Source: a virus
Virus record (IMG/VR): IMGVR_UViG_3300042260_001010
Location: 1-44,863 of that record
Reading direction: 5' to 3' (one strand)
DNA length: 44,863 nucleotides
The notes under the pieces are model-generated. The model searched no databases and had not been told where the DNA came from. It was given only the letters and a program-made list of their open reading frames with translations. The position numbers and the translations under genes were made by a program. This document shows, piece after piece, positions 5,516 through 43,628 of the stretch; position 1 is the first letter of the stretch, and the number at the start of each line of letters is the position of its first letter.

Positions 5516-5917
5516 ATGCACGAACACTTCACATTGCATCAAGGTACGCCCGAGGCGGTGCACCTGCCGGACTCAGCGCAGGGCTGTCGAGAACGGATGG
5601 CAGCGCTGCAAGGCGAGATTGCCTCCATCCGCATCCAGATTGCCACAACCGATATTCGGCGGCAGTCGGAGAAGAAGACGCTTGACGCTGCCTGGTTCCA
5701 CCGCGCCAAAACCGCACTGCGCTTAAAGCAGCAGGAGCTGGCGCAGGTGATGGCGCATCTTGCGACCTTTGATAAACGCGCAGCGCCCAAGCACCGTGAT
5801 GCTTTCAAGGACACCTTGATTGAAGTGGTGCGGGAAAACTGCAATGACCAGGAGTGGGCGGGCTTGGTGCAACGTGCACGCGACCTGCACGCCAGCCAGG
5901 GAGAAAACCATGGCTGA
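5516..5917 (+). CDS. Coiled-coil phage protein of unknown function
   Basis: 133 residues, not recognised. Residues about 25-85 form a long amphipathic helix or coiled coil rich in Arg, Gln, Leu and Ala (ERMAALQGEIASIRIQIATT ... LRLKQQELAQVMAHLATF). A mixed C-terminal part follows. Its end overlaps the nuclease gene by 8 bases. The context (between the DUF669 gene and a PD-(D/E)XK gene) suggests a recombination or replication accessory, but nothing in the sequence fixes a function. Confidence 0.72.
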   Translation: MHEHFTLHQGTPEAVHLPDSAQGCRERMAALQGEIASIRIQIATTDIRRQSEKKTLDAAWFHRAKTALRLKQQELAQVMAHLATFDKRAAPKHRDAFKDTLIEVVRENCNDQEWAGLVQRARDLHASQGENHG

Positions 5918-6875
5918 ACTGCCCGCCATCACCAGCCTCACCCGCGAGGCGATCTTCTCTGGTTATGAAGCGGATGCCAGTAACGGGTTTCGCAGCCACC
6001 TTGGCGCGTCCCTCATCGGCAAGGAGTGCGAGCGAGCGCTTTGGTACGACTTTCGGTGGGTGACGCGCAGCAAGCACCCAGGACGGTTGTTGCGCTTATT
6101 TGAAACCGGCCAACTCGAGGAAGCACGTCTGGTGCTCAACCTGCGGCGCACCGGCGCGACCGTACTCGAAGTTGATCCCGAGACCGGGCGTCAGTTTCGG
6201 GTGCAGGCCCATGGCGGCCACTTTGGGGGCTCGCTTGACGGTCTTGCCATCAATTTGCTTGAAGCACCCAAAGCCTGGCATGTGCTGGAGTTCAAGACGC
6301 ACTCCAACAAGAGCTTTGGCGATCTGGTGGCCAAGAAGGTGCGCGAGTCCAAGCCGCAGCACTTTGCCCAGATGCAAATCTACATGCACCTGATGGGCAT
6401 TACCCGAGCGATGTACTTGGCTGTGAACAAGGACACCGATGACCTGTATGTCGAACGCGTGGAGGCAGATGTCACTTATGCGGAACTTCTTCTGGAAAAA
6501 GCCCGGCGAATCATCTTCGCCCAAACTCCACTGCCACGCATCAGCGAGGAGCCCAGTTGGTATCAGTGCCGCATGTGTGACCACGCACCGGTTTGCCATG
6601 CAAGCGGCAACAGCGTGGTGGCACCTGCGATCAATTGCCGTACTTGCCTGCACTCAACACCCGTGGATGGTGGTTGGCATTGCGACCGGCATCAAAAACG
6701 CCTGACCGAAGTAGATCAGCGCACTGGCTGTGAGCAGCACCTGTATTTGCCGCCACTTGTCCCTGCGACGCAAGTCGATGCAGGTGACGACTGGGTTGAC
6801 TACGAATTTACCAACGGTATTCGATGGCGCGATGCCGGTTTGAACAAGCACGCGGAAGGCGGACATGGCCAATAG
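5910..6875 (+). CDS. PD-(D/E)XK superfamily nuclease with C-terminal cysteine cluster
   Basis: 321 residues. The catalytic pattern is visible: GGSLDG supplies Asp110, and LEFKT supplies Glu127 and Lys129, followed by the QMQIYMHLMG helix (about residues 154-163), as in RecB/Cas4-like nucleases. A cysteine cluster (Cys220, Cys223, Cys229 and further Cys near 249-252) may bind an Fe-S cluster or zinc, as in Cas4/AddB-type proteins. It probably resects DNA ends for the annealing ATPase upstream. The ATG at 5910 is preceded by GGGAGAAAACC. A longer frame upstream lacks a start signal. The 3' end overlaps the inserted HNH gene by 11 bases. Confidence 0.85.
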   Translation: MAELPAITSLTREAIFSGYEADASNGFRSHLGASLIGKECERALWYDFRWVTRSKHPGRLLRLFETGQLEEARLVLNLRRTGATVLEVDPETGRQFRVQAHGGHFGGSLDGLAINLLEAPKAWHVLEFKTHSNKSFGDLVAKKVRESKPQHFAQMQIYMHLMGITRAMYLAVNKDTDDLYVERVEADVTYAELLLEKARRIIFAQTPLPRISEEPSWYQCRMCDHAPVCHASGNSVVAPAINCRTCLHSTPVDGGWHCDRHQKRLTEVDQRTGCEQHLYLPPLVPATQVDAGDDWVDYEFTNGIRWRDAGLNKHAEGGHGQ

Positions 6876-7467
6876 ATGTGACCTGACAGATTTTCGTGCT
6901 GGACGATTGCTCGTTCTCGGCGACAGCGGAAACCGTGCCAAGAGCGGCGACATCTTATGGGTCTGTATGTGCGACTGCGGAAATCTTCACTTGGCAGTTA
7001 AAGGCAACTTAAGGGCCCGTTCGGTTCAGTCCTGCGGTTGCTTGGCGCGCGAGTTGTCGTCACTGCGAATGCGCAGCGCAGCCAGGCCTGCCCAAAGGTG
7101 TCGACACGAGGGCTGCGAGCAAACGACTGAAAAAGGCGGTCTTGGCTATTGCGGGATGCATGCGCAGAGGCTGCGCAGATGGGGCGATCCTGCCTACGTG
7201 ACGCCAGAGGAAATTCGGCGGACCAATAACCGCGAGGCCCAGCGCCAGCGTTTTTCAACTGTCAAGCCATCGACCTACAGAAAACTCTTCGGCCGCCACG
7301 AGCACCGCGTCGTGGCGCAAAACATGTTGGGAAGGCCCTTGCGCAGTGACGAGCATGTCCATCACCTGGACGAGAACAAACACAACAACGCACCTGAAAA
7401 CCTCGCTGTCATGTCGGCCAGAGAACACCTGGCCCTGCATGCAAAGCAAAGGAGAAATGAAAAATGA
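6865..7467 (+). CDS. HNH endonuclease (homing-type) inserted between nuclease and helicase genes
   Basis: 200 residues. The N-terminus holds a zinc-knuckle-like CxCxN...SCGCL motif (CMCDCGN about residues 34-40, SCGCL about 56-60), typical of phage free-standing HNH enzymes. A second Cys/His group (CRHEGCEQ ... YCGMH) lies in the middle. The C-terminal HNH motif is EHVHHLDENKHNNAPENLAV, in which paired His, Asp/Glu and Asn coordinate metal. The gene overlaps its upstream neighbour by 11 bases and its downstream neighbour by 4 (ATGA). This suits a selfish element fitted into an operon without polarity. Its target is unknown. Confidence 0.85.
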   Translation: MANRCDLTDFRAGRLLVLGDSGNRAKSGDILWVCMCDCGNLHLAVKGNLRARSVQSCGCLARELSSLRMRSAARPAQRCRHEGCEQTTEKGGLGYCGMHAQRLRRWGDPAYVTPEEIRRTNNREAQRQRFSTVKPSTYRKLFGRHEHRVVAQNMLGRPLRSDEHVHHLDENKHNNAPENLAVMSAREHLALHAKQRRNEK

Positions 7468-9035
7468 TAACCCTGCGCCCCTACCAAACCGCCGCGATCG
7501 ATGCCATCTATCGTTACTACGAAGCACACGCCGGAAATTGCCTGATCACCATTCCGACCGCTGGCGGCAAGTCCATGGTCATGGCCACCTTTGTTGAAGG
7601 CGTGCTCAAAGCCTTTCCAGATCAGCGCATCCTGATCGTGACTCATGTGCGTGAGCTGATTGAACAGAACTTTGCCGAACTCAAAAAGCTTTGGCCGCAA
7701 GCCCCGGCAGGGATTTATTCAGCAGGACTTAAGAAGCGTGAGATCCGTGCGCAGATTTTGTTTGCTGGCATCCAGTCCATTCACAAGCGTGTGTATGACG
7801 TTCAGCAGTGCGATCTGGTGTTGATTGATGAAGCGCATTTGATTCCGCGCTCCTCAAACACGATGTACCGCAAGTTTCTTGATGGCTTGAAGCGCATTAA
7901 CCCCATGCTCAAAGTGATTGGTCTGACAGCCACGCCATACCGCCTTGACTCTGGGTTGTTGCATGAAGGTAGTGAGGCCATCTTCACTGACATCGCCTAC
8001 GAGGTTTCGGTGCGCGAGTTGATTGATGACCACTACCTTTCGCCACTGATCTCCAAACGCATGGCAACGCAAATTGACCTCACTGGTGTGGGCACACGCG
8101 GCGGTGAGTTCATCCCGAAGGATTTGGAAGCGGCCATTGACCAGGACGCGATCACACAAAGCGCAGTCAATGAAATCTTCTCGTACTCAAAAAACCGTAA
8201 AAGCTGGCTGATCTTCTGTGCTGGCGTGGACCATGCGTACCACGTGCGTGATGCGGTGCGCAGCAGAGGAGTGACCTGCGAGACGATTGTGGGCGATACG
8301 CCTAGCGCCCATCGCGAAGCGATCATCAATGACTTCAAGGCCGGACGAATTCAGTGCCTGACCAATGCCAATGTCTTGACGACAGGCTTTAACGCTCCTG
8401 CGGTAGACCTGATTGCCATGCTGCGCCCGACCAAGTCGGCTGGCTTGTATGTGCAGATCGTTGGTCGTGGCTGCCGTCTTGCACCGGGCAAGACCGACTG
8501 CTTGGTGCTCGACTTTGCCGGGAACATTGCGCGCCACGGACCCATTGACGCCATCAAGCCCAAGACACCCAAAGCGGGTGAAGACGGCGATGCGCCCACC
8601 AAAGCCTGCCCTGAGTGCGACAGCATCGTGCACGCGGCGGTACGTCAGTGCCCCGACTGTGGCCACATGTTTCCGGAGCCGCAAATCAAGATTGACGCCA
8701 AAGCCAGCACTTTGGACATCCTCTCTGGCGGTCCACCCGAGTGGGTGCCCGTGACACGGGTCAGCTATGCCCGGCACGACAAGACTGGTAAGCCGCCGTC
8801 ACTTCGAGTTGATTACTGGAGTGGACTGAGTTCCCACAGCGAATGGGTTTGCATTGAGCACCAGGGCTATGCGCGGCAAAAGGCTGCGAGCTGGTGGGCA
8901 AACCGAGCACCGGGGCTGCCACTTCCCCGTGGTGTTGATGAAGCTCTGGCCGTATCGCAGCGGCTCAAGTGCCCATCGCAGATCGCGGTGCGCCCGAGCG
9001 GGCGTTACACAGAAATCGTCGGCGCGCGCTTTTGA
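7464..9035 (+). CDS. DEAD/DEAH-box (superfamily 2) helicase
   Basis: 523 residues. Motifs in order: Q-like LRPYQTAAIDAI (4-15), Walker A PTAGGKS (31-37), DEAH (122-125), TATPYRLD (155-162), TTGFNAPAVDLI (306-317) and motif VI QIVGRGCRL (331-339). This is a RecG/RadD/type III Res-like SF2 translocase. A zinc ribbon with CPEC (382-385) and CPDC (396-399) follows the helicase core, and an additional C-terminal domain of about 110 residues comes after it. The nearest bacterial analogue by layout is RadD. It probably acts at replication or recombination forks with the adjacent nuclease and primase. The ATG overlaps the HNH stop (ATGA). Confidence 0.92.
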   Translation: MITLRPYQTAAIDAIYRYYEAHAGNCLITIPTAGGKSMVMATFVEGVLKAFPDQRILIVTHVRELIEQNFAELKKLWPQAPAGIYSAGLKKREIRAQILFAGIQSIHKRVYDVQQCDLVLIDEAHLIPRSSNTMYRKFLDGLKRINPMLKVIGLTATPYRLDSGLLHEGSEAIFTDIAYEVSVRELIDDHYLSPLISKRMATQIDLTGVGTRGGEFIPKDLEAAIDQDAITQSAVNEIFSYSKNRKSWLIFCAGVDHAYHVRDAVRSRGVTCETIVGDTPSAHREAIINDFKAGRIQCLTNANVLTTGFNAPAVDLIAMLRPTKSAGLYVQIVGRGCRLAPGKTDCLVLDFAGNIARHGPIDAIKPKTPKAGEDGDAPTKACPECDSIVHAAVRQCPDCGHMFPEPQIKIDAKASTLDILSGGPPEWVPVTRVSYARHDKTGKPPSLRVDYWSGLSSHSEWVCIEHQGYARQKAASWWANRAPGLPLPRGVDEALAVSQRLKCPSQIAVRPSGRYTEIVGARF

Positions 9036-9049
9036 TGTCGAGCGCATAA

Positions 9050-9373
9050 ATGATGTGCGCCATTTGCAGGCGCGATGCCCGAGGGTATGGGTTCGCGCCA
9101 TGTTTGATCCGTATTGATGCGCCGAGCGTGAAGTTGTGCTCTAGGCGCTGTCAAAACATTGCAGCAAGGCTAAAGGGAATGATTGATCCAAACCAACACG
9201 AAACCAACGCGCTGGCAGCGGCCTGCCAGACAGGGGGCGAGTACGTCGAGTCGCTCGCCAAAACAGATCTGACCAGTTTCACCGCAGTGGAGTGGTCAAC
9301 CTTGATTGATGTGGTCGTGACCGCGTTTCAAGACTCACTTCGTACTGCCTATGCAGATGACCCACCATTTTGA
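9050..9373 (+). CDS. DUF6511-like zinc-finger phage protein
   Basis: 107 residues. The N-terminus MMCAICRRDARGYGFAPCLI ... LCSRRCQ has two Cys pairs (CAIC and CSRRC) forming a probable zinc finger. The C-terminus is helical (SLAKTDLTSFTAVEWSTLID). The architecture is like the DUF6511 family found beside phage primases. ATG codons occur at 9050 and 9053. The TGA (9371-9373) is 8 bases before the primase start, so the genes are likely co-translated. Function is unknown. Confidence 0.78.
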   Translation: MMCAICRRDARGYGFAPCLIRIDAPSVKLCSRRCQNIAARLKGMIDPNQHETNALAAACQTGGEYVESLAKTDLTSFTAVEWSTLIDVVVTAFQDSLRTAYADDPPF

Positions 9374-16012: not shown

Positions 16013-16291
16013 TCAGTCATCTAGCCGTTTGAGGTCCCGGTAAAAGTTTTCATGTGCCCCCAGCGTGAGAAGCTTGAGGCTTTGCTCGTCCAATATCCGG
16101 TAGCCCAACAGGCACAGTTGATTGGAGATGCGGAACTTATAAACGCGAATGCCCGCCAGGTCGCCGACTTTGGCGTCACCCACCGAGGGGTCGGCGCTTA
16201 TAGCGCGCAGCGCTGCATCGAGCTCAAGTTTTTGTGGCGCATGCAGCCGCTTGGTGGCCCGCACAAACGAGGGCGTAACAAGCAGTCGCAT
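16013..16291 (-). CDS. RelE/ParE-family toxin
   Basis: 92 residues starting at ATG 16291. The profile MRLLVTPSFVRATKRLHAPQ, then DAALRAISADPSVGDAKVGD, LAGIRVYKFRISNQLCLLGY and LTLGAHENFYRDLKR is typical of RelE/ParE toxins, which cleave ribosome-bound mRNA or poison gyrase. The ATG overlaps the antitoxin TAA by one base (TAATG), so the pair is translationally coupled. The reading frame continues upstream through the antitoxin region, but that part is not coding. Confidence 0.88.
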   Translation of the reverse strand: MRLLVTPSFVRATKRLHAPQKLELDAALRAISADPSVGDAKVGDLAGIRVYKFRISNQLCLLGYRILDEQSLKLLTLGAHENFYRDLKRLDD

Positions 16292-16500
16292 TAGCTGAAG
16301 GTGTACTCGCCGACCACGGCCTCCTGGTCCGCCACCAAGAGGTCGCGGATCATAGAGAACGGCAGATCCGGGTTCTCCTCGGCAATCTTGCCGATCTGGG
16401 ACCAATACTCGATCTGCTTGGGAGTAGAGCGGTGCTGCACTTGGGCACAACTTCTGGCCTGCTCGACCAATTTGTCCGAAAGTTTGACGTTGACAGTCAT
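16291..16500 (-). CDS. ParD-like antitoxin
   Basis: 69 residues. TVNVKLSDKLVEQARSCAQV (N-terminal ribbon-helix-helix) followed by STPKQIEYWSQIGKIAEENP matches the ParD-like family. AAGGAT is 7 bases before the ATG at 16500. GGTTCC boxes just upstream are the likely autoregulatory operator. It is the first gene of the antitoxin-toxin operon. Confidence 0.85.
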   Translation of the reverse strand: MTVNVKLSDKLVEQARSCAQVQHRSTPKQIEYWSQIGKIAEENPDLPFSMIRDLLVADQEAVVGEYTFS

Positions 16501-16518
16501 GCTGGATCCTTATGAAGT

Positions 16519-16555
16519 GGTTCCATGATAGCGCAAAAGGTTCCAAAAAGGAACC
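16519..16555 (-). promoter_or_regulatory. GGTTCC-box operator/promoter of the ParD-like/RelE pair
   Basis: A perfect inverted repeat GGTTCC (16539-16544) / GGAACC (16550-16555) with a 5-base AAAAA spacer, plus a third GGTTCC (16519-16524). A minus-strand -10-like TATCAT (16530-16525) lies between the boxes. The layout suits an RHH antitoxin autorepressing its promoter; no clear -35 box is seen. Confidence 0.55.
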
Positions 16556-16609
16556 TCTGTTTTTGACCGTTACGCCCGTTCGAATCAGGTGCCAAGACAC
16601 CTGGCCAGA

Positions 16610-19796: not shown

Positions 19797-20210
19797 TCAG
19801 TGGTTGCTGACCCAGTTTTCAACACGCAGTCCGGCATAGTTCACAAAGTCTGCTTCGTTGTTGGTGACCAGTGTCACCCCTAGAGCGACTGCATGAGATG
19901 CGATGAGTTTGTCCAGAGCATCGCGGTTGCGATCCTTGTAGGCTGCGCGGATGGGGCCATAGGCTTTGGCAGCTTGTGCATCAAAAGGCGCAACCATGAT
20001 GTCGTCGAGCAAGCTCTCCATTGCCAACCGGTTCGATTGCTGTGCCGCAGTGCTTGAGCACGCGATACCAAATTCAAGCTCAGCCAAAGTCACCGCAGAA
20101 ATCACCACGTCGCCCACAAAGCACTGGGCGAATCGCTCGCGCACCTCAGGCGGCTGGTGCTTCATGAGGTAGATGCAGATGTTGGTGTCGAGCATGTACT
20201 TTGGATTCAT
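19797..20210 (-). CDS. vapC: VapC-type PIN-domain ribonuclease toxin
   Basis: 137 residues. PIN acidic residues are all present: Asp8 in YMLDTNICIYLMK, Glu44 in VTLAELEFGI, Asp100 in RDALDKLIASHA and Asp121 in NNEADF. VapC toxins cut tRNA or rRNA. The ATG overlaps the VapB TGA (ATGA). Read leftward, against the surrounding phage genes. Confidence 0.94.
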   Translation of the reverse strand: MNPKYMLDTNICIYLMKHQPPEVRERFAQCFVGDVVISAVTLAELEFGIACSSTAAQQSNRLAMESLLDDIMVAPFDAQAAKAYGPIRAAYKDRNRDALDKLIASHAVALGVTLVTNNEADFVNYAGLRVENWVSNH

Positions 20211-20443
20211 AAAGCTTCGCGTTCGCCCTCGACGTTTTCGCCTCGGCCCTGGGCCATGAAGTCTGGTGAGAACTTGGCAAGTTTGCCCAGCACATCGCCC
20301 ATGCGGCGCTGCGCCGGACGAATGCGCAACTCGTCTCCTTGGCGCTCGATGACCAGATCAACGTCCCACGTGCTGTAGGCAAGTTCGGCAGGGATGCGAA
20401 CGGCCTGCGAGTTGCCGTTCTTGAAAAGTTTGGTATTGGCCAT
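20207..20443 (-). CDS. vapB: VapB-type (SpoVT-AbrB) antitoxin
   Basis: 78 residues. The N-terminal swapped-hairpin domain TKLFKNGNSQAVRIPAELAY is diagnostic of VapB/AbrB-type antitoxins. The C-terminal part (DVLGKLAKFSPDFMAQGRGE) binds VapC. AAAGGATT is upstream of the ATG at 20443. A palindromic operator lies 15 bases further upstream. Confidence 0.92.
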   Translation of the reverse strand: MANTKLFKNGNSQAVRIPAELAYSTWDVDLVIERQGDELRIRPAQRRMGDVLGKLAKFSPDFMAQGRGENVEGEREAL

Positions 20444-38561: not shown

Positions 38562-40007
38562 ATGCCCAACCTCATTCAAATCAAACGATCCGCCACCACC
38601 GCTACGCCGCCCACGCTGGCAGTGGGGGAACTGGCCTGGTCCGAAGTCAGCAAGACGCTGTTCATCGGCGAGTCCGGCAGTGTTGTCACTGCCGCCGCTG
38701 GCTCGGGGGTCTTTGCCAAGAAGGCTGACAGCTTCGCAGTCAGTGGCGATGCAACTGGCACCGGCACGCTGTCGGGTGGCGTGGTGCTGGCCCTGGCGGC
38801 CAGTGGCGTTGGCGCAGGTAGCTATTCCAACGTCACCGTGGACGCCAAGGGACGCGTGACTGGCGGCTCAAATCCGGGTTACCTCACTGCGAACCAGAAC
38901 ATCACGGTGTCTGGTGATGCAACGGGTTCAGGCACAACAGCGATTGCACTGACTCTGGCCAGCAGCGGTGTTACGGCGGGGACTTACAACAACGGCGTCA
39001 CGGCGCAGACGCCATTCACTGTTGATGCAAAAGGCCGCATTACCGCCATCGGTACAGCCGTAACAGTGACGCCCGCCTGGGCCAGTGTCACCGGCAAGCC
39101 AACTACGCTGTCTGGCTACGGGATCACCGACGCACTGGCGCTCACCGGTGGCACGCTCACTGGCGCTTTGACTTTAGCGGCGGACCCCACCAACGCACTC
39201 CACGCAGCAACCAAGCAGTACGTGGACAACGCCATCACCGGACTGGACTTCAAAGCATCGGTTCGCGCGGCCACCACAGCCAACATCACGCTCTCTGGAA
39301 CACAGACGATTGATGGTGTAGCGCTCATCGCAGGTGACAGAGTGCTGGTCAAAGACCAGACGACTCCAAGCCAGAACGGTTTGTATTTAGTGGCCGCAGG
39401 CGCATGGACACGCACTGCAGACGCCGACAACTCTCCTGCAGGCGAGGTCTCCTCCGGGCTGTACACCTTTATTGAGGAAGGGACTACCTACGCTGATTCA
39501 GGTTGGGTGCTTGCCAGCAACAACCCGATCACCATAGGCACTACCGCGTTGACGTTTCAGCAATTCAACGGTCTGGGACAACTCACTGCGGGCACAGGCC
39601 TGACCAAGTCCGGCAATACGCTGTCAATGACCTCCTCGGGCGTTACGGCTGGAACCTATTCCAGCATGACGGTGGATGTCACCGGACGGGTCACTGCGGG
39701 CACCAACCCGGGCTACATCACAGCCAACCAAAACATCACGGTCTCAGGCGATGTCACTGGTTCGGGAACAACATCGATGGCGCTCACCCTGGCTGCCAGC
39801 GGCGTGACGGCGGGCACATACAACAATTCAGCCACGGCGCATACGCCATTCACCGTTGATGCCAAAGGCAGAGTCACAGCCATTGGTGCGGCTGTCACGG
39901 TCACGCCTGCATGGACCAGCGTCAGTGGCAAACCTACAACCCTGTCTGGCTTTGGTATCACGGACGCCTTGTCCACCAGCGCCACGATTGACGGAGGCTC
40001 GTTCTAA
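38562..40007 (+). CDS. Tail fibre protein with duplicated repeat
   Basis: 481 residues, rich in Gly, Ser and Thr. The head (MPNLIQIKRSATTATPPTLA, then VGELAWSEVSKTLFIGESGS) is a common fibre-attachment module. A long copy of the repeat (SGVTAGTY..., VDAKGRIT, VTGKPTTLSGYGITDAL) occurs twice. Between them is a typical fibre segment with AATKQYVDNAITGLDFKASV and VALIAGDRVLVKDQTTPSQN. The gene probably encodes a trimeric host-recognition fibre. Confidence 0.88.
   Translation: MPNLIQIKRSATTATPPTLAVGELAWSEVSKTLFIGESGSVVTAAAGSGVFAKKADSFAVSGDATGTGTLSGGVVLALAASGVGAGSYSNVTVDAKGRVTGGSNPGYLTANQNITVSGDATGSGTTAIALTLASSGVTAGTYNNGVTAQTPFTVDAKGRITAIGTAVTVTPAWASVTGKPTTLSGYGITDALALTGGTLTGALTLAADPTNALHAATKQYVDNAITGLDFKASVRAATTANITLSGTQTIDGVALIAGDRVLVKDQTTPSQNGLYLVAAGAWTRTADADNSPAGEVSSGLYTFIEEGTTYADSGWVLASNNPITIGTTALTFQQFNGLGQLTAGTGLTKSGNTLSMTSSGVTAGTYSSMTVDVTGRVTAGTNPGYITANQNITVSGDVTGSGTTSMALTLAASGVTAGTYNNSATAHTPFTVDAKGRVTAIGAAVTVTPAWTSVSGKPTTLSGFGITDALSTSATIDGGSF
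38865..39971 (+). repeat. Two 273-bp repeats inside the tail fibre gene
   Basis: Copies at 38865-39137 and 39699-39971, each 91 codons, share GxNPGYxTANQNITVSGDxT, ALTLAxSGVTAGTYNN, PFTVDAKGRxTAIG and VTPAWxSVxGKPTTLSG. They are separated by about 560 bases. Recombination between them could remove or multiply fibre segments. Confidence 0.9.
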
Positions 40008-40009
40008 CC

Positions 40010-40204
40010 ATGCCCAACACCATCCTGCACAAGCGCAGCAGTACGGCAGCCGCTGTGCCCACCGCTGCGCAAGTCACGCTGGGTGAGTTGGTACTCAACG
40101 TGGCGGACGGAAAAATTTATCTCAAACGCGCAGACGGCGTGATCGTTACCTTTGAGCCGGGCTATGTGCCGGGCCAGGGGAACTCCGCGCCCATGTGGAA
40201 ATAA
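40010..40204 (+). CDS. Small fibre-head-like protein
   Basis: 64 residues. MPNTILHKRSSTAAAVPTAA, then LGELVLNVADGKIYLKRADG resembles the N-terminal module of the large fibre (MPN-I--KRS ... GEL). It may be a stand-alone copy that lost its shaft. It starts 3 bases after the fibre stop and precedes the Cys-tail fibre gene. Confidence 0.72.
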   Translation: MPNTILHKRSSTAAAVPTAAQVTLGELVLNVADGKIYLKRADGVIVTFEPGYVPGQGNSAPMWK

Positions 40205-40216
40205 CCGGAGGCATTC

Positions 40217-40828
40217 ATGGCAGCTATTCCATCCAAGGCCAGTTTTACTGGCACTACCGTAACCCAAGGGCAGTTCAAGACTGCCCTTGATTCTTTAAAC
40301 GACTACCTTACGGGTTTGCTGGGCTCAGACGGTACAGCAGCGACAGCGCGAACGGCATTGGGCGTGATCAATGCGACAGCGCCGACCTATGCGCAGGTGA
40401 TTGCCGCACTCGGTTTCACGCCTCCGCAGCCCGGTGGCACCGGTGCATCAGGGACCTGGCCTATCAGCGTAAGCGGCAATGCGGCCACCGCATCCAAACT
40501 CAATTCAACGGCGGGCGCTGGCACGTACAACTGGACGGGGCAGTCCGGTCAGCCGACCTGGGTTTGGGGTGGTAACGACGGGACCAATTTCTATGTCTAC
40601 AACCCGTCTAACTTCTCGGTGAACTACGCGGGTAGCGCAGGCACTGTGCCCTGGACTGGCGTGAGTGGACGCCCCACTGCGGTTGCAGATTTTCAGTACA
40701 GCGGAAACGTTGGTGACGGCATCGGAGGTGCGTTAGCTGTCAGCGCACTGGTTCAAGTCGCAACAGATAACACGGTACGCATTTATCGAAACACGAACTG
40801 CAATTGCGACTGTGCTTGCTGCTGCTAA
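40217..40828 (+). CDS. Fibre-like protein with six-cysteine C-terminal tail (candidate modification substrate)
   Basis: 203 residues. The body is fibre-like and Gly/Thr/Ala-rich (GTGASGTWPISVSGNAATAS, TYNWTGQSGQPTWVWGGNDG, VPWTGVSGRPTAVADF). There is no Cys in residues 1-194. The last residues are NTNCNCDCACCC, with Cys at 195, 197, 199, 201, 202 and 203. Such a tail would be strange as an ordinary fibre end and looks like a substrate tag for cross-linking, metal binding or Cys chemistry. The downstream genes encode a 2OG-oxygenase-like and a radical SAM enzyme. GGAGG precedes the ATG. Confidence 0.82.
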   Translation: MAAIPSKASFTGTTVTQGQFKTALDSLNDYLTGLLGSDGTAATARTALGVINATAPTYAQVIAALGFTPPQPGGTGASGTWPISVSGNAATASKLNSTAGAGTYNWTGQSGQPTWVWGGNDGTNFYVYNPSNFSVNYAGSAGTVPWTGVSGRPTAVADFQYSGNVGDGIGGALAVSALVQVATDNTVRIYRNTNCNCDCACCC

Positions 40829-40839
40829 GGACCCACAAC

Positions 40840-41631
40840 ATGAAAATCATTGCAGTGCGAAACGCAAAAATTCATCCCCAGTTTCAACCAACCGTTCATC
40901 TCGGTTTCGACCCTGTCACGAGCGACCTGAGTGTGTCCCTGTATCTGCCATCGCTTGCGATAGAGGAGGCGGCTACGGGTATCGCTGGCTTGACGTTGAT
41001 TGAGTCGGTGGTCGTCAACGTTGGTGACCTGCGCAAGCGCTACGACTGGTGCGATCACCAGACCTACTTTGTGGCTGTTCATGCCGGGGCGTTTCTTCCT
41101 GTCTTTGCGCTGTACCCAGAGACACTCCCCAATCGCGAGACAGCGGTCGATTACGCCCAACGCCTCAAGAGAAATCTGCTGGTGGGCATCAACGTGCCAT
41201 TCGCAGCGGCCAGTGACGATGAGTTGTTCATCACGGTGAACCTCAACGCGCAGGCGACGGATGCCAACATTCAGGTCGATGAGCACTGCGCGTTGGTCTG
41301 GAGCGATGCGGCCAGCAGCGGCGCTGTTCGTACCATGGCGTTTCCGTTCATTCATGTGCAAGCGCCTGCCAGTGTTGCAGCAGGCGGCAGTGCCTTGATC
41401 GAATTGCGCATCGAGGATGTAGCTGGTCAACTGCTTGACCGGGAGGCTGTTGTCTACCTGGAAGCTGTGAGTGGACTGGTGCCTTTTGCACGCGTGCGTG
41501 CGTCTCATGGTTTGGCTTCGGTTCCCGTCTCGGCGGCAGCCATGTCTGCTGGAGATGAAATCCGGGTGAAGTTCGGCTGGAAGTATTTTCCAGGCGCAGA
41601 GGATGCGCGGATTGCGGTGGTGGCTGCATGA
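40840..41631 (+). CDS. Unknown protein with Ig-like C-terminal part, first partner in the modification cassette
   Basis: 263 residues from ATG 40840, 11 bases after the Cys-tail gene stop, with AAGGACC upstream. Residues 1-160 are mixed (YDWCDHQTYFVAVHAGAFLP, ETAVDYAQRLKRNLLVGINV). Residues about 175-263 resemble a bacterial Ig-like repeat (PASVAAGGSALIELRIEDVA, GLASVPVSAAAMSAGDEIRV). No enzyme motif is seen. It may be a virion protein, a chaperone or a scaffold for the downstream enzymes. Its TGA overlaps the next ATG by four bases (ATGA). Confidence 0.75.
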   Translation: MKIIAVRNAKIHPQFQPTVHLGFDPVTSDLSVSLYLPSLAIEEAATGIAGLTLIESVVVNVGDLRKRYDWCDHQTYFVAVHAGAFLPVFALYPETLPNRETAVDYAQRLKRNLLVGINVPFAAASDDELFITVNLNAQATDANIQVDEHCALVWSDAASSGAVRTMAFPFIHVQAPASVAAGGSALIELRIEDVAGQLLDREAVVYLEAVSGLVPFARVRASHGLASVPVSAAAMSAGDEIRVKFGWKYFPGAEDARIAVVAA

Positions 41632-42185
41632 TGCAACTGCTTTTCCCAACTCCGGTGTTTCGCACCCAACTTGGATTGACAGACGAAGAGCGTCAAGTCC
41701 TCAAAGAAAAGACGCTCGCGGTCTATGGCGAACTTAACCCCGATAGAAAACCTTGGAGCCGCTCGACCCGTGAGTCACTCGAATCCATGGACCCTGCATT
41801 TGCAGACCTGTTCGCACGAATCAAAGCCGTGACCAGCGAGGCTTTCGGTATTGGCATCGCATCCATCACCGGCAGGGAAGTGGTTCAGTTCAAAGGTGAT
41901 TTCGTACCGCCCCATGTGGAGTCGGCCCATTTGTCTGCCATCTACTGGATTGATGGTGACACCCACCCCGACCCTGAGCGCGGCGAGTACGACGGCGCAT
42001 TGGTCTTGCAAAGCCCGATCGGCCCCTATGGCAGCAAGGCGCTGCCTGGTGAAAAGCGCGTGTCCATGATCAACCCTCAGCCGGATTTGCTGCTGGTGTT
42101 TCCGAGCCACTTGCTTCATTTCGGGCATGTTTACCTGGGCGAGCGTCCCAGCGTTGAAATCCACATTGAGATGGAGGTGCTCTGA
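41628..42185 (+). CDS. 2OG-Fe(II) oxygenase-like protein
   Basis: 185 residues. The family start LLFPTPVFRTQLGLTDEERQ and the cupin-like core VPPHVESAHLSAIYWI, then LLLVFPSHLLHFGHVYLGER resemble the PF13759-type 2OG-Fe(II) oxygenase. Candidate ligands are His96, Glu98 (HxE form), His164 and the 2-oxoglutarate-binding Arg173. Such enzymes hydroxylate proteins or small molecules. The HxE in place of HxD is unusual but tolerated in some families. It is coupled at both ends (ATGA; TGATG), so it should be made in balance with the radical SAM enzyme. Confidence 0.75.
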   Translation: MMQLLFPTPVFRTQLGLTDEERQVLKEKTLAVYGELNPDRKPWSRSTRESLESMDPAFADLFARIKAVTSEAFGIGIASITGREVVQFKGDFVPPHVESAHLSAIYWIDGDTHPDPERGEYDGALVLQSPIGPYGSKALPGEKRVSMINPQPDLLLVFPSHLLHFGHVYLGERPSVEIHIEMEVL

Positions 42186-43552
42186 TGGCCCAGTTCAAGA
42201 TCAAGCTCATTGCGCCGGACAACACTGAGCGCGAGTTGCATTACGACAACCAGACCAGCAGCCTGACTTGGGGAGCGGATGGGTTTGGCTCCCCGGTACT
42301 GGAAGTCAATCCCAAAACGTTTCAGGATGCCACGGTCGTGAGCACTACCCAGCCAGGCCGAAAAGGCCTGATCAAGACTCTCAAAATCAGCCTAGGTTTG
42401 TCCTGCAACTACGAGTGCAACTACTGCAGCCAGCGCTTTGTGCCCCACGCTGAAAGCACGAATCCTGAGGATGTGGAGGACTTCCTGCAGCAGTTGACCA
42501 CCAGCCTGAGCCAGGCTCCCGAGCGCATTGAATTTTGGGGCGGTGAACCACTGGTGTACATCAAGACCTTGAAGCCTTTGGCTGAGCGCCTGCGAGTGCT
42601 GTACCCGGATGCTGAGTTCCTGATCATCACCAACGGCTCATTGCTCAGTCTTGAGACCAACGAGTGGCTGGACCGAATGGGCTTCGTCGTCGGGCTCTCC
42701 CACGATGGACCTGGCTACCACGCACGCGGGGCAGACCCGCTAGACGACCCGCAGCAGCGCGCCGCCATCATGGATTTGTACGCGCGCCTCCAACCGCAGG
42801 GCCGCATCAGCATCAACGCGATGATCAGCAGCCAAAATCCGAGCAGGGCAGCGGTGCAGCTTTGGCTGCAAGAACGCTTCGGGGCCGATGTTCAGATTGG
42901 TGAAGGCGCATTCATCGACCCCTACGATGAAGGCGGCCTGGCCGCCACCTTCAAGACCACCGCTGAGCACGCACAGTTTCGCAGGCAAGGGTTTGGTGAA
43001 GTCCGCACTGGCCTTACCAGTCGCTTTGACCTCACCAACCAGAAGATTCAAGACTTCATCGATTCCATTCGCTACCAGCGCCCAGCCTCTGCGCTTGGGC
43101 AAAAGTGCGGCATGGACCGCAGCCACAACCTGGCTGTGGATCTCAAGGGCAATGTCGTGACCTGCCAGAACGTGAGCGCTGCTGCCTTGGCTCCCAATGG
43201 ACAGAGTCATCTGATTGGCCAGTTGTCAGACCTGTCCGCTGTGCGCATGAAAAGCGCCACGCACTGGAGCCAGCGCCAAGGCTGCTCATCTTGCCCAGTA
43301 CTGCAAATGTGCAAGGGCTCGTGCATGTTTTTAGAAGGTCCGCTTTGGGAAGCTGGGTGCGACGCCGCCTATTCGGACAACTTGGTGTTCTTTGCGGTGG
43401 CCATTGAGTTTCTGACGGGTTGCATGCCTGTCTTTATCGACGGCGATCTGCCGCCGGAGCGCAAGGACATCTTTGGCCTGGCCAAAAGTACTGTGGAGTC
43501 GCCGCCAGTAAGGCGCGTGATTCCGATCATTGCAGCGCAGCAAACAGCCTAA
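42185..43552 (+). CDS. Radical SAM/SPASM peptide or protein-modifying enzyme
   Basis: 455 residues. The radical SAM motif CNYECNYC is at Cys74, Cys78 and Cys81; GGEPL at about 119-123 binds SAM. A SPASM-type C-terminal domain contains Cys308, Cys327, Cys367, Cys370, Cys376, Cys380 and Cys392 (CSSCPVLQMCKGSC pattern), which hold extra 4Fe-4S clusters. SPASM enzymes include sulfatase maturases and RiPP thioether or epimerase enzymes. The N-terminal 60 residues are a beta-rich extra part. The gene is the last of a coupled cassette; a terminator follows 28 bases later. Modification of the Cys-tail protein is inference. Confidence 0.92.
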   Translation: MAQFKIKLIAPDNTERELHYDNQTSSLTWGADGFGSPVLEVNPKTFQDATVVSTTQPGRKGLIKTLKISLGLSCNYECNYCSQRFVPHAESTNPEDVEDFLQQLTTSLSQAPERIEFWGGEPLVYIKTLKPLAERLRVLYPDAEFLIITNGSLLSLETNEWLDRMGFVVGLSHDGPGYHARGADPLDDPQQRAAIMDLYARLQPQGRISINAMISSQNPSRAAVQLWLQERFGADVQIGEGAFIDPYDEGGLAATFKTTAEHAQFRRQGFGEVRTGLTSRFDLTNQKIQDFIDSIRYQRPASALGQKCGMDRSHNLAVDLKGNVVTCQNVSAAALAPNGQSHLIGQLSDLSAVRMKSATHWSQRQGCSSCPVLQMCKGSCMFLEGPLWEAGCDAAYSDNLVFFAVAIEFLTGCMPVFIDGDLPPERKDIFGLAKSTVESPPVRRVIPIIAAQQTA

Positions 43553-43579
43553 GCCACACAACAAACCGTTTCATCAATT

Positions 43580-43628
43580 GCCCGCCTGGTTCACCTTTTG
43601 TGTGTGCCAGTGCGGGCTTTTTCTTTTT
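43580..43628 (+). terminator. Intrinsic terminator closing the tail/modification operon
   Basis: Stem GCCCGCCTGG (43580-43589) pairs with CCAG (43607-43610), a bulged T, and GCGGGC (43612-43617), followed by TTTTTCTTTTT. It separates the cassette from the lysis genes. Confidence 0.85.

Follow-up and report, generated by a model that had tools for sequence, protein, structure and literature searches.

The window, that is, the whole stretch of DNA analysed here, is a 44.9-kb virus record whose tail-gene order ends in lysis genes. The genes for a tail-fibre protein, a protein designated X, an oxygenase-like protein and a radical SAM enzyme are tightly packed on one strand and are followed by DUF6127, a holin-like gene and a lysozyme gene. 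The features concerned are the following:

40217-40828, plus strand: tail-fibre protein, 203 aa, bearing the Cys tail; tail-less relatives share residues 1 to about 83-91.
40796-40825, plus strand: (Asn/Asp)-Cys tail, the NTNCNCDCACCC region, proposed core peptide and substrate of the radical SAM enzyme.
40840-41631, plus strand: protein X, 263 aa, fast-evolving, with a C-terminal invasin-like Ig domain (residues ~168-263).
41628-42185, plus strand: 2OG-Fe(II) oxygenase-like protein, 185 aa (phrog_81, E 1.6e-12).
42185-43552, plus strand: radical SAM/SPASM enzyme, 455 aa, proposed Cys-tail maturase, 1.4 kb downstream of the tail.
40467-43611, plus strand: exchangeable block of 3.1 kb with the Cys tail, X, oxygenase and radical SAM genes.

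The fibre gene lies directly 3' of two other fibre genes (38562-40007 and 40010-40204), the first of which contains internally repeated segments (AGTYNN...FTVDAKGR). Inspection by eye also revealed a VapC-like PIN-domain protein with a VapB-like partner between the terminase genes on the opposite strand (19797-20434, minus strand), and a RelE/ParE-like protein, another possible toxin-antitoxin component, at 16013-16600 (minus strand). The closest prophage copies of the radical SAM enzyme (96% identical) reside in Limnohabitans genomes, which makes a betaproteobacterium from fresh water the likely host.

Part of the body of the 203-aa protein is similar to phage tail-fibre proteins; its comparison by sequence with solved structures gave no useful match, and a search of a plasmid collection gave no relevant one. 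The protein ends in TNCNCDCACCC (...RIYRNTNCNCDCACCC), and its only cysteines are residues 195, 197, 199, 201, 202 and 203, six within the last nine residues, which agrees in positions and count with the first-pass annotation. Six randomly placed cysteines would all fall in the last nine of 203 residues with p = 9e-10, and among 2,453 other ORFs of 100 aa or more in related loci, only 5 have at least four cysteines in the last 14 residues. The same annotation had considered a frame artefact unlikely, given a next gene only 11 bases on, and both points hold: the stop codon (40826-40828) is separated from the next ATG (40840) by 11 bases, and near relatives keep the tail in frame with synonymous codon changes, which rules out a frame artefact or resequencing error. 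An accident of low-complexity DNA was ruled out as well, since both Cys and both Asn codons are mixed across tails and since out-of-frame matches to the pattern lack the enzyme.

Comparison of homologues, named beforehand as the test on which the cysteine cluster should stand or fall, revealed a widely kept Cys pattern rather than unrelated ends. Near relatives of the window gain or lose whole Asn-Cys units (NCNCDCCC, NCNCNCDCCC, NCNCNCDCACCC, NCNCNCNCGC), and among 138 distinct tails the run consists of 3 to 10 x-Cys units in which Cys is the more constant half. The residue preceding Cys in these tails is Asn in 72%, Asp in 13% and Ala in 9% of cases; Asn or Asp thus precede 85% of cysteines versus a background of 10% (Asn 5.8%, Asp 3.9%). 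The run lies at most nine residues from the C-terminus in 121 of the 138 tails and is exactly terminal in 49 of those. In about 12 other tails a Hint domain stands at the run or a few residues behind it, with PF05203 at 3e-12 in Achromobacter phage JWF, above cut-off in L144 too and weaker elsewhere, and in L148 a Peptidase_S74 domain begins two residues behind the run. The window's own fibre protein has neither domain. Hint and Peptidase_S74 domains self-cleave in known proteins, so all three arrangements would leave the same free Cys terminus, and the autoprocessing domain in about 13 tails would expose the run. Loci with a Hint domain directly or a few residues after the run include L112 (9844-11295, JWF gp28), L259, L289-L291, L294, L303, L196, L179 and L144; JWF gp28 and the Burkholderia relative of this protein show a further match, to PF04917 (PilV shufflon N-terminal region). 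By blastp, the approximately 95 residues preceding the run sort into 12 groups with no similarity to one another, that is, the tail is carried by unrelated fibre domains, which suggests convergence.

In some systems small proteins of 65-134 aa with NC-repeat ends replace the long fibre (e.g. L173 and L149). Three tandem small proteins of this kind precede one radical SAM gene in L173 (about 5900-7114), L200 (4251-5182) and L209, and they resemble multiple RiPP precursors. In L263 (7497-7952), L266 (7519-7914) and L149, short proteins carry the motif WLQxNCNCxCTYNC ... NC repeats, and their genes end 20-50 bases or less from the radical SAM start.

The association of the tail with the radical SAM gene holds in both directions. 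When the radical SAM protein was the sole query, 117 loci with 4.5 kb or more of upstream sequence were obtained; a same-strand (N/D)C motif was present in 102 (median distance 1.46 kb), and in 53 of 65 after enzymes more than 85% alike were removed. Conversely, a search by DNA pattern only gave at least 120 stretches, 105 in-frame and 15 out-of-frame, of a family that is larger; among the matches listed, the enzyme lies within the stretch for 84 of the 105 in-frame motifs and elsewhere in the record for 9 more. An enzyme is thus present in the same record for 93/105 in-frame versus 1/15 out-of-frame matches listed (Fisher p 2e-10), where the counts in both samples overstate the number of independent cases, as the sampled loci are mutually related and neither sample is phylogenetically independent. 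Several of the 12 in-frame matches listed without the enzyme are contigs cut near the fibre gene or non-tail motifs (plainly so in L165, L192, L217 and L232). Taken together, the Cys tail and the radical SAM enzyme are strongly linked.

The motif-free loci in the enzyme-retrieved sample belong mainly to a chromosomal, apparently non-phage branch (L284, L286, L288, L293, L295, L300), others being broken or rearranged (L252, L031) or bearing a weak tail (TACNCAGGACDCG in L052). The chromosomal branch, from Variovorax, Ramlibacter and others, has a gene of ~770 aa and an ATP-grasp-like gene adjoining the enzyme (around 7800-9300) and appears to be a different system; as some relatives are tail-less, the enzyme lineage also serves other substrates. 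In the stretches read from Campylobacter, Thermus, Fusobacterium and Vibrio phages with distant radical SAM proteins the (N/D)C tail is absent, and these phages were left out of the linkage counts. Among cultured phages, a close enzyme was found at the protein level only in JWF and its relative 2-1. Two human faecal records, MT835702 and MT835472, in which a SCIFF-like peptide adjoins the enzyme, look bacterial and were rejected. Seven loci (L124, L181, L184, L154, L155, L136, L273) contain two to three different radical SAM genes each, mostly with an NC-tailed protein.

Near relatives of the window show the tail and the enzymes being replaced jointly. In L095, L097, L098 and L099 the upstream 64-aa gene is common with the window and the fibre is 83-88% identical over approximately its first 91 residues; in all four the fibre end is without a Cys run, and the X, oxygenase and radical SAM genes are absent. 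The flanks of L097 and L099 align to the window at 82-83% and 88-89% identity and are joined by approximately 1.25 kb, in which the fibre ends in the ordinary way and a few small genes occur. As the flanks match and the block differs, the tail and the enzymes were replaced as one unit.

The linkage and the block swap bear on two explanations in which the tail is not modified. A disulfide-bonded trimer cap, one of the roles suggested in the first-pass annotation, would make the neighbouring enzymes unrelated passengers. Cys-rich ends can lock trimers and fibres are mostly trimeric, but neither the two-way linkage nor the block swap would be expected of passengers, and 3-10 alternating cysteines with a strong Asn/Asp preference exceed the needs of a cap, which renders this explanation highly improbable; as the partner genes, which the annotation does not mention, are linked to the tail, enzymatic modification is favoured over an unmodified cap. 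Alternatively, the tail may form an unmodified metal-binding needle, in which the alternating cysteines of the trimer hold metal or Fe-S along the axis and the radical SAM enzyme acts elsewhere. The Cys run is confined to the tip, and xCxCxC resembles the HxH logic of metal-holding tips, in which iron sites are documented (PMC11705849). The tail fibres with such sites (T4 gp37, Alteromonas phage R22Y) share alternating ligand residues with the tail described here, which differs in having Cys in place of His, in being strictly terminal and in being tied to modifying enzymes; the 203-aa fibre protein contains no His, and HxH motifs are thus absent from it. The needle would, however, leave unexplained both why the tail is linked in two directions to a peptide-maturase fold of the radical SAM/SPASM type and why the two are replaced jointly, and the 65-134 aa NC-repeat-ended proteins near the enzyme (L173, L149) look like precursors, hence it seems quite unlikely as a full account. 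A metal site, which had been suggested earlier, may coexist with modification.

The best explanation, with a probability of about 0.78, is that the phage encodes in its radical SAM/SPASM enzyme a maturase for its own Cys tail, which would act in a RiPP-like modification of the fibre tip, much as SPASM maturases elsewhere do on Cys-rich RiPP precursors. This reading draws on the two-way linkage, the block swap, the 12 unrelated domain groups and the free end of the tail.

The enzyme scores above cut-off as a radical SAM protein (PF04055, 31.3 bits, cut-off 29.5) and for the SPASM domain (TIGR04085, 34.1, cut-off 27), and matches phrog_1802 (8e-60). In an alignment of 30 sequences comprising the window and locus proteins, with JWF left out, the CX3CX2C motif (C74/C78/C81) and seven SPASM cysteines (C308, C327, C367, C370, C376, C380, C392) are invariant, and an eighth conserved SPASM Cys was not found. 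The spacing of the seven (C308 X13 G322 X4 C327; C367 X2 C370 X5 C376 X3 C380; C392) conforms to the motif CX9-15GX4C-gap-CX2CX5CX3C-gap-C. Scores far below the cut-offs for PapB (NF047865, 51.9 versus 340 bits) and for anSME (TIGR03942, 39.5 versus 349.45 bits) place the enzyme outside every curated functional family tested. Residues 1-55, a small part rich in strands, can be aligned with the beginning of CteB but match no RRE family. With an AlphaFold2 model (mean pLDDT 88), Foldseek ranked anSMEcpe first, followed by CteB, ChlB, SuiB, TigE and SkfB, whereas a second structural comparison placed CteB first (Z 24.8, 369 residues, 4.2 A), ahead of ChlB (Z 22), anSMEcpe (21) and TigE (18.6).

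These structural matches leave room for a different chemistry, also among the roles suggested earlier, in which formylglycine or a related aldehyde is made from Cys as by anSME, and the carbonyls could capture the receptor covalently. Here anSMEcpe is the top Foldseek match and reaches Z 21 in the second comparison, the fold is that of a radical SAM/SPASM enzyme, Cys is the natural anSME substrate, and the JWF homologue is annotated as a sulfatase-maturating enzyme. Against this, the sulfatase-maturation motif C/S-x-P-x-R (CxPxR) is absent from the tail NTNCNCDCACCC, no sulfatase was seen nearby, CteB outscores anSMEcpe in the second comparison, and the anSME family score (39.5 versus 349) is far below cut-off. 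Four Cys complete the ligation of the Aux I cluster in anSME; the cluster in CteB has an open site, which a substrate Cys occupies (PMC6231123). The eighth SPASM Cys, which anSME uses on Aux I (PMC6231123), is not conserved in the enzymes aligned here. With seven SPASM Cys and no eighth, a CteB-like enzyme appears the better fit, a non-Cys ligand being possible, and the count is compatible with an open site on Aux I. Formylglycine is accordingly the weaker of the two enzymatic options raised in the first-pass annotation and is improbable, and thioether rings, as a chemistry that we infer, are favoured.

If the tail is modified, thioethers are the leading guess for the bonds formed, at approximately even odds, considering the best match to CteB, the seven SPASM Cys and the Asn/Asp preceding Cys together with the precedent of PapB, which accepts Cys-Xn-Asp with n = 0-6 (PMC9413430). 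In enteropeptins, moreover, a ring is formed between neighbouring Cys and N-methylornithine (PMC12973295). Several results argue against such a maturation of the tail: seven SPASM Cys fit several chemistries, anSME is structurally close (Z 21), the score against the curated thioether family tested is far below its cut-off (PapB, 52 versus 340 bits), an RRE family match is lacking, and some relatives of the enzyme occur without a tail. The enzyme may instead act on Asn/Asp, by epimerisation or formation of a carbon-carbon bond, with the cysteines serving as metal or disulfide ligands in the product. Asn or Asp partners Cys in 85% of units, EpeE is an epimerase, and TvgB makes cyclopropylglycine on a repeat peptide (PMC9062424); since thioethers are what the best structural match forms and Cys varies less than its partner in the unit, there appears to be little chance that Asn/Asp rather than Cys is the primary target.

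Under modification of the tail by the radical SAM enzyme, the fibre protein would be translated with its tail, which the enzyme would then bind, cross-linking Cys to carbons of neighbouring residues, for which Asn/Asp are the obvious acceptors. Where the oxygenase is encoded, in about half of the systems, Asn/Asp or the product may also be hydroxylated, the oxygenase thereby presumably acting on the same peptide. In the case of TvgB, which works along its repeat peptide, a dioxygenase gene is paired (PMC9062424). The modified protein would be assembled as the fibre tip, so that the end in contact with the receptor would bear a rigid, cross-linked cap that possibly binds metal. Such a cap may serve adsorption, and it would be compatible with roles in stiffness, protease resistance, metal binding and receptor contact.

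The two genes between the tail and the enzyme are less constant. Relatives of the oxygenase-like protein occur in 49 of 87 representative loci; its score against PF13759 (20.2 bits) is below the cut-off of 27, and its match to phrog_81 and an H-x-E ... H ... R pattern suggest that it likely works as a 2OG oxygenase. Relatives of protein X are located near the radical SAM gene in 62 of the 87 loci. In the model of X (mean pLDDT 94), the Ig domain is similar to GH2, invasin and intimin Ig domains (Z 10-12.6) and to the neck protein of phage Chi (Z 10.9), and residues 1-167 have no match in two structural comparisons. Protein X may be a second surface component or an adaptor.

Among known systems, CteA/CteB, PapA/PapB and SCIFF likewise have a radical SAM/SPASM gene close to a protein with a Cys-rich stretch, and the general criterion for sactipeptides and ranthipeptides, a Cys-rich substrate near a radical SAM/SPASM gene and kept across relatives, describes the present locus. 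CteB is the nearest solved structure in the second comparison, and the seven SPASM Cys are as in CteB/AlbA-type enzymes. The substrate there is a small exported peptide, whereas here it is a virion fibre tip, often of 200-700 aa, with alternating (N/D)C, sometimes with Hint or S74 domains behind the run, no transporter or bacteriocin context, and scores below the family cut-offs. Autoprocessing domains behind a fibre body are familiar from Peptidase_S74/Hint fibre processing; here a minority of systems carry them where the Cys run stops, a position from which they would expose it. The system differs from anSME in the absence of CxPxR and of a conserved eighth SPASM Cys. The closest precedent in the papers searched, the uncharacterised cluster 59 of Kostenko et al. 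2022, consists of a recombinase, a radical SAM enzyme and a peptide with Asp-Cys up to six times (PMC9062424). It shares with the fibre-tail systems a radical SAM enzyme and a repeated acidic/amide-Cys dipeptide and differs in having three genes and a small peptide, with phages and tail fibres unmentioned; as judged by description only (PMC9062424), the two may be related. A text search of open-access papers found no radical SAM enzyme from a phage that acts on a virion protein.

Phage fibre tips set host range and are regarded as folded polypeptide, at most metal-binding. A more far-reaching possibility, which we put forward tentatively and consider rather doubtful in its full form, is that a widespread class of phage receptor-binding tips are ribosomal natural products, in which phage-encoded radical SAM enzymes, by chemistry so far undescribed, convert the (Asn/Asp)-Cys tails of non-homologous fibre proteins into a cross-linked cap, perhaps loaded with metal; a stop codon, Hint or S74 would expose this cap, which may dock on host metal-uptake receptors. 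If true, a tip-rewriting phage radical SAM enzyme would join phage receptor binding and RiPP chemistry, would add a large new set of radical SAM enzymes working on a very simple repeated dipeptide, and would offer a route to attach stable cross-linked caps to trimeric proteins. Cultured sources of the system are Achromobacter phage JWF and prophages in Limnohabitans and Burkholderia genomes. The pairing of tail and enzyme in a wide range of phages suggests that the tip of the fibre undergoes chemical rebuilding akin to that of a peptide natural product.
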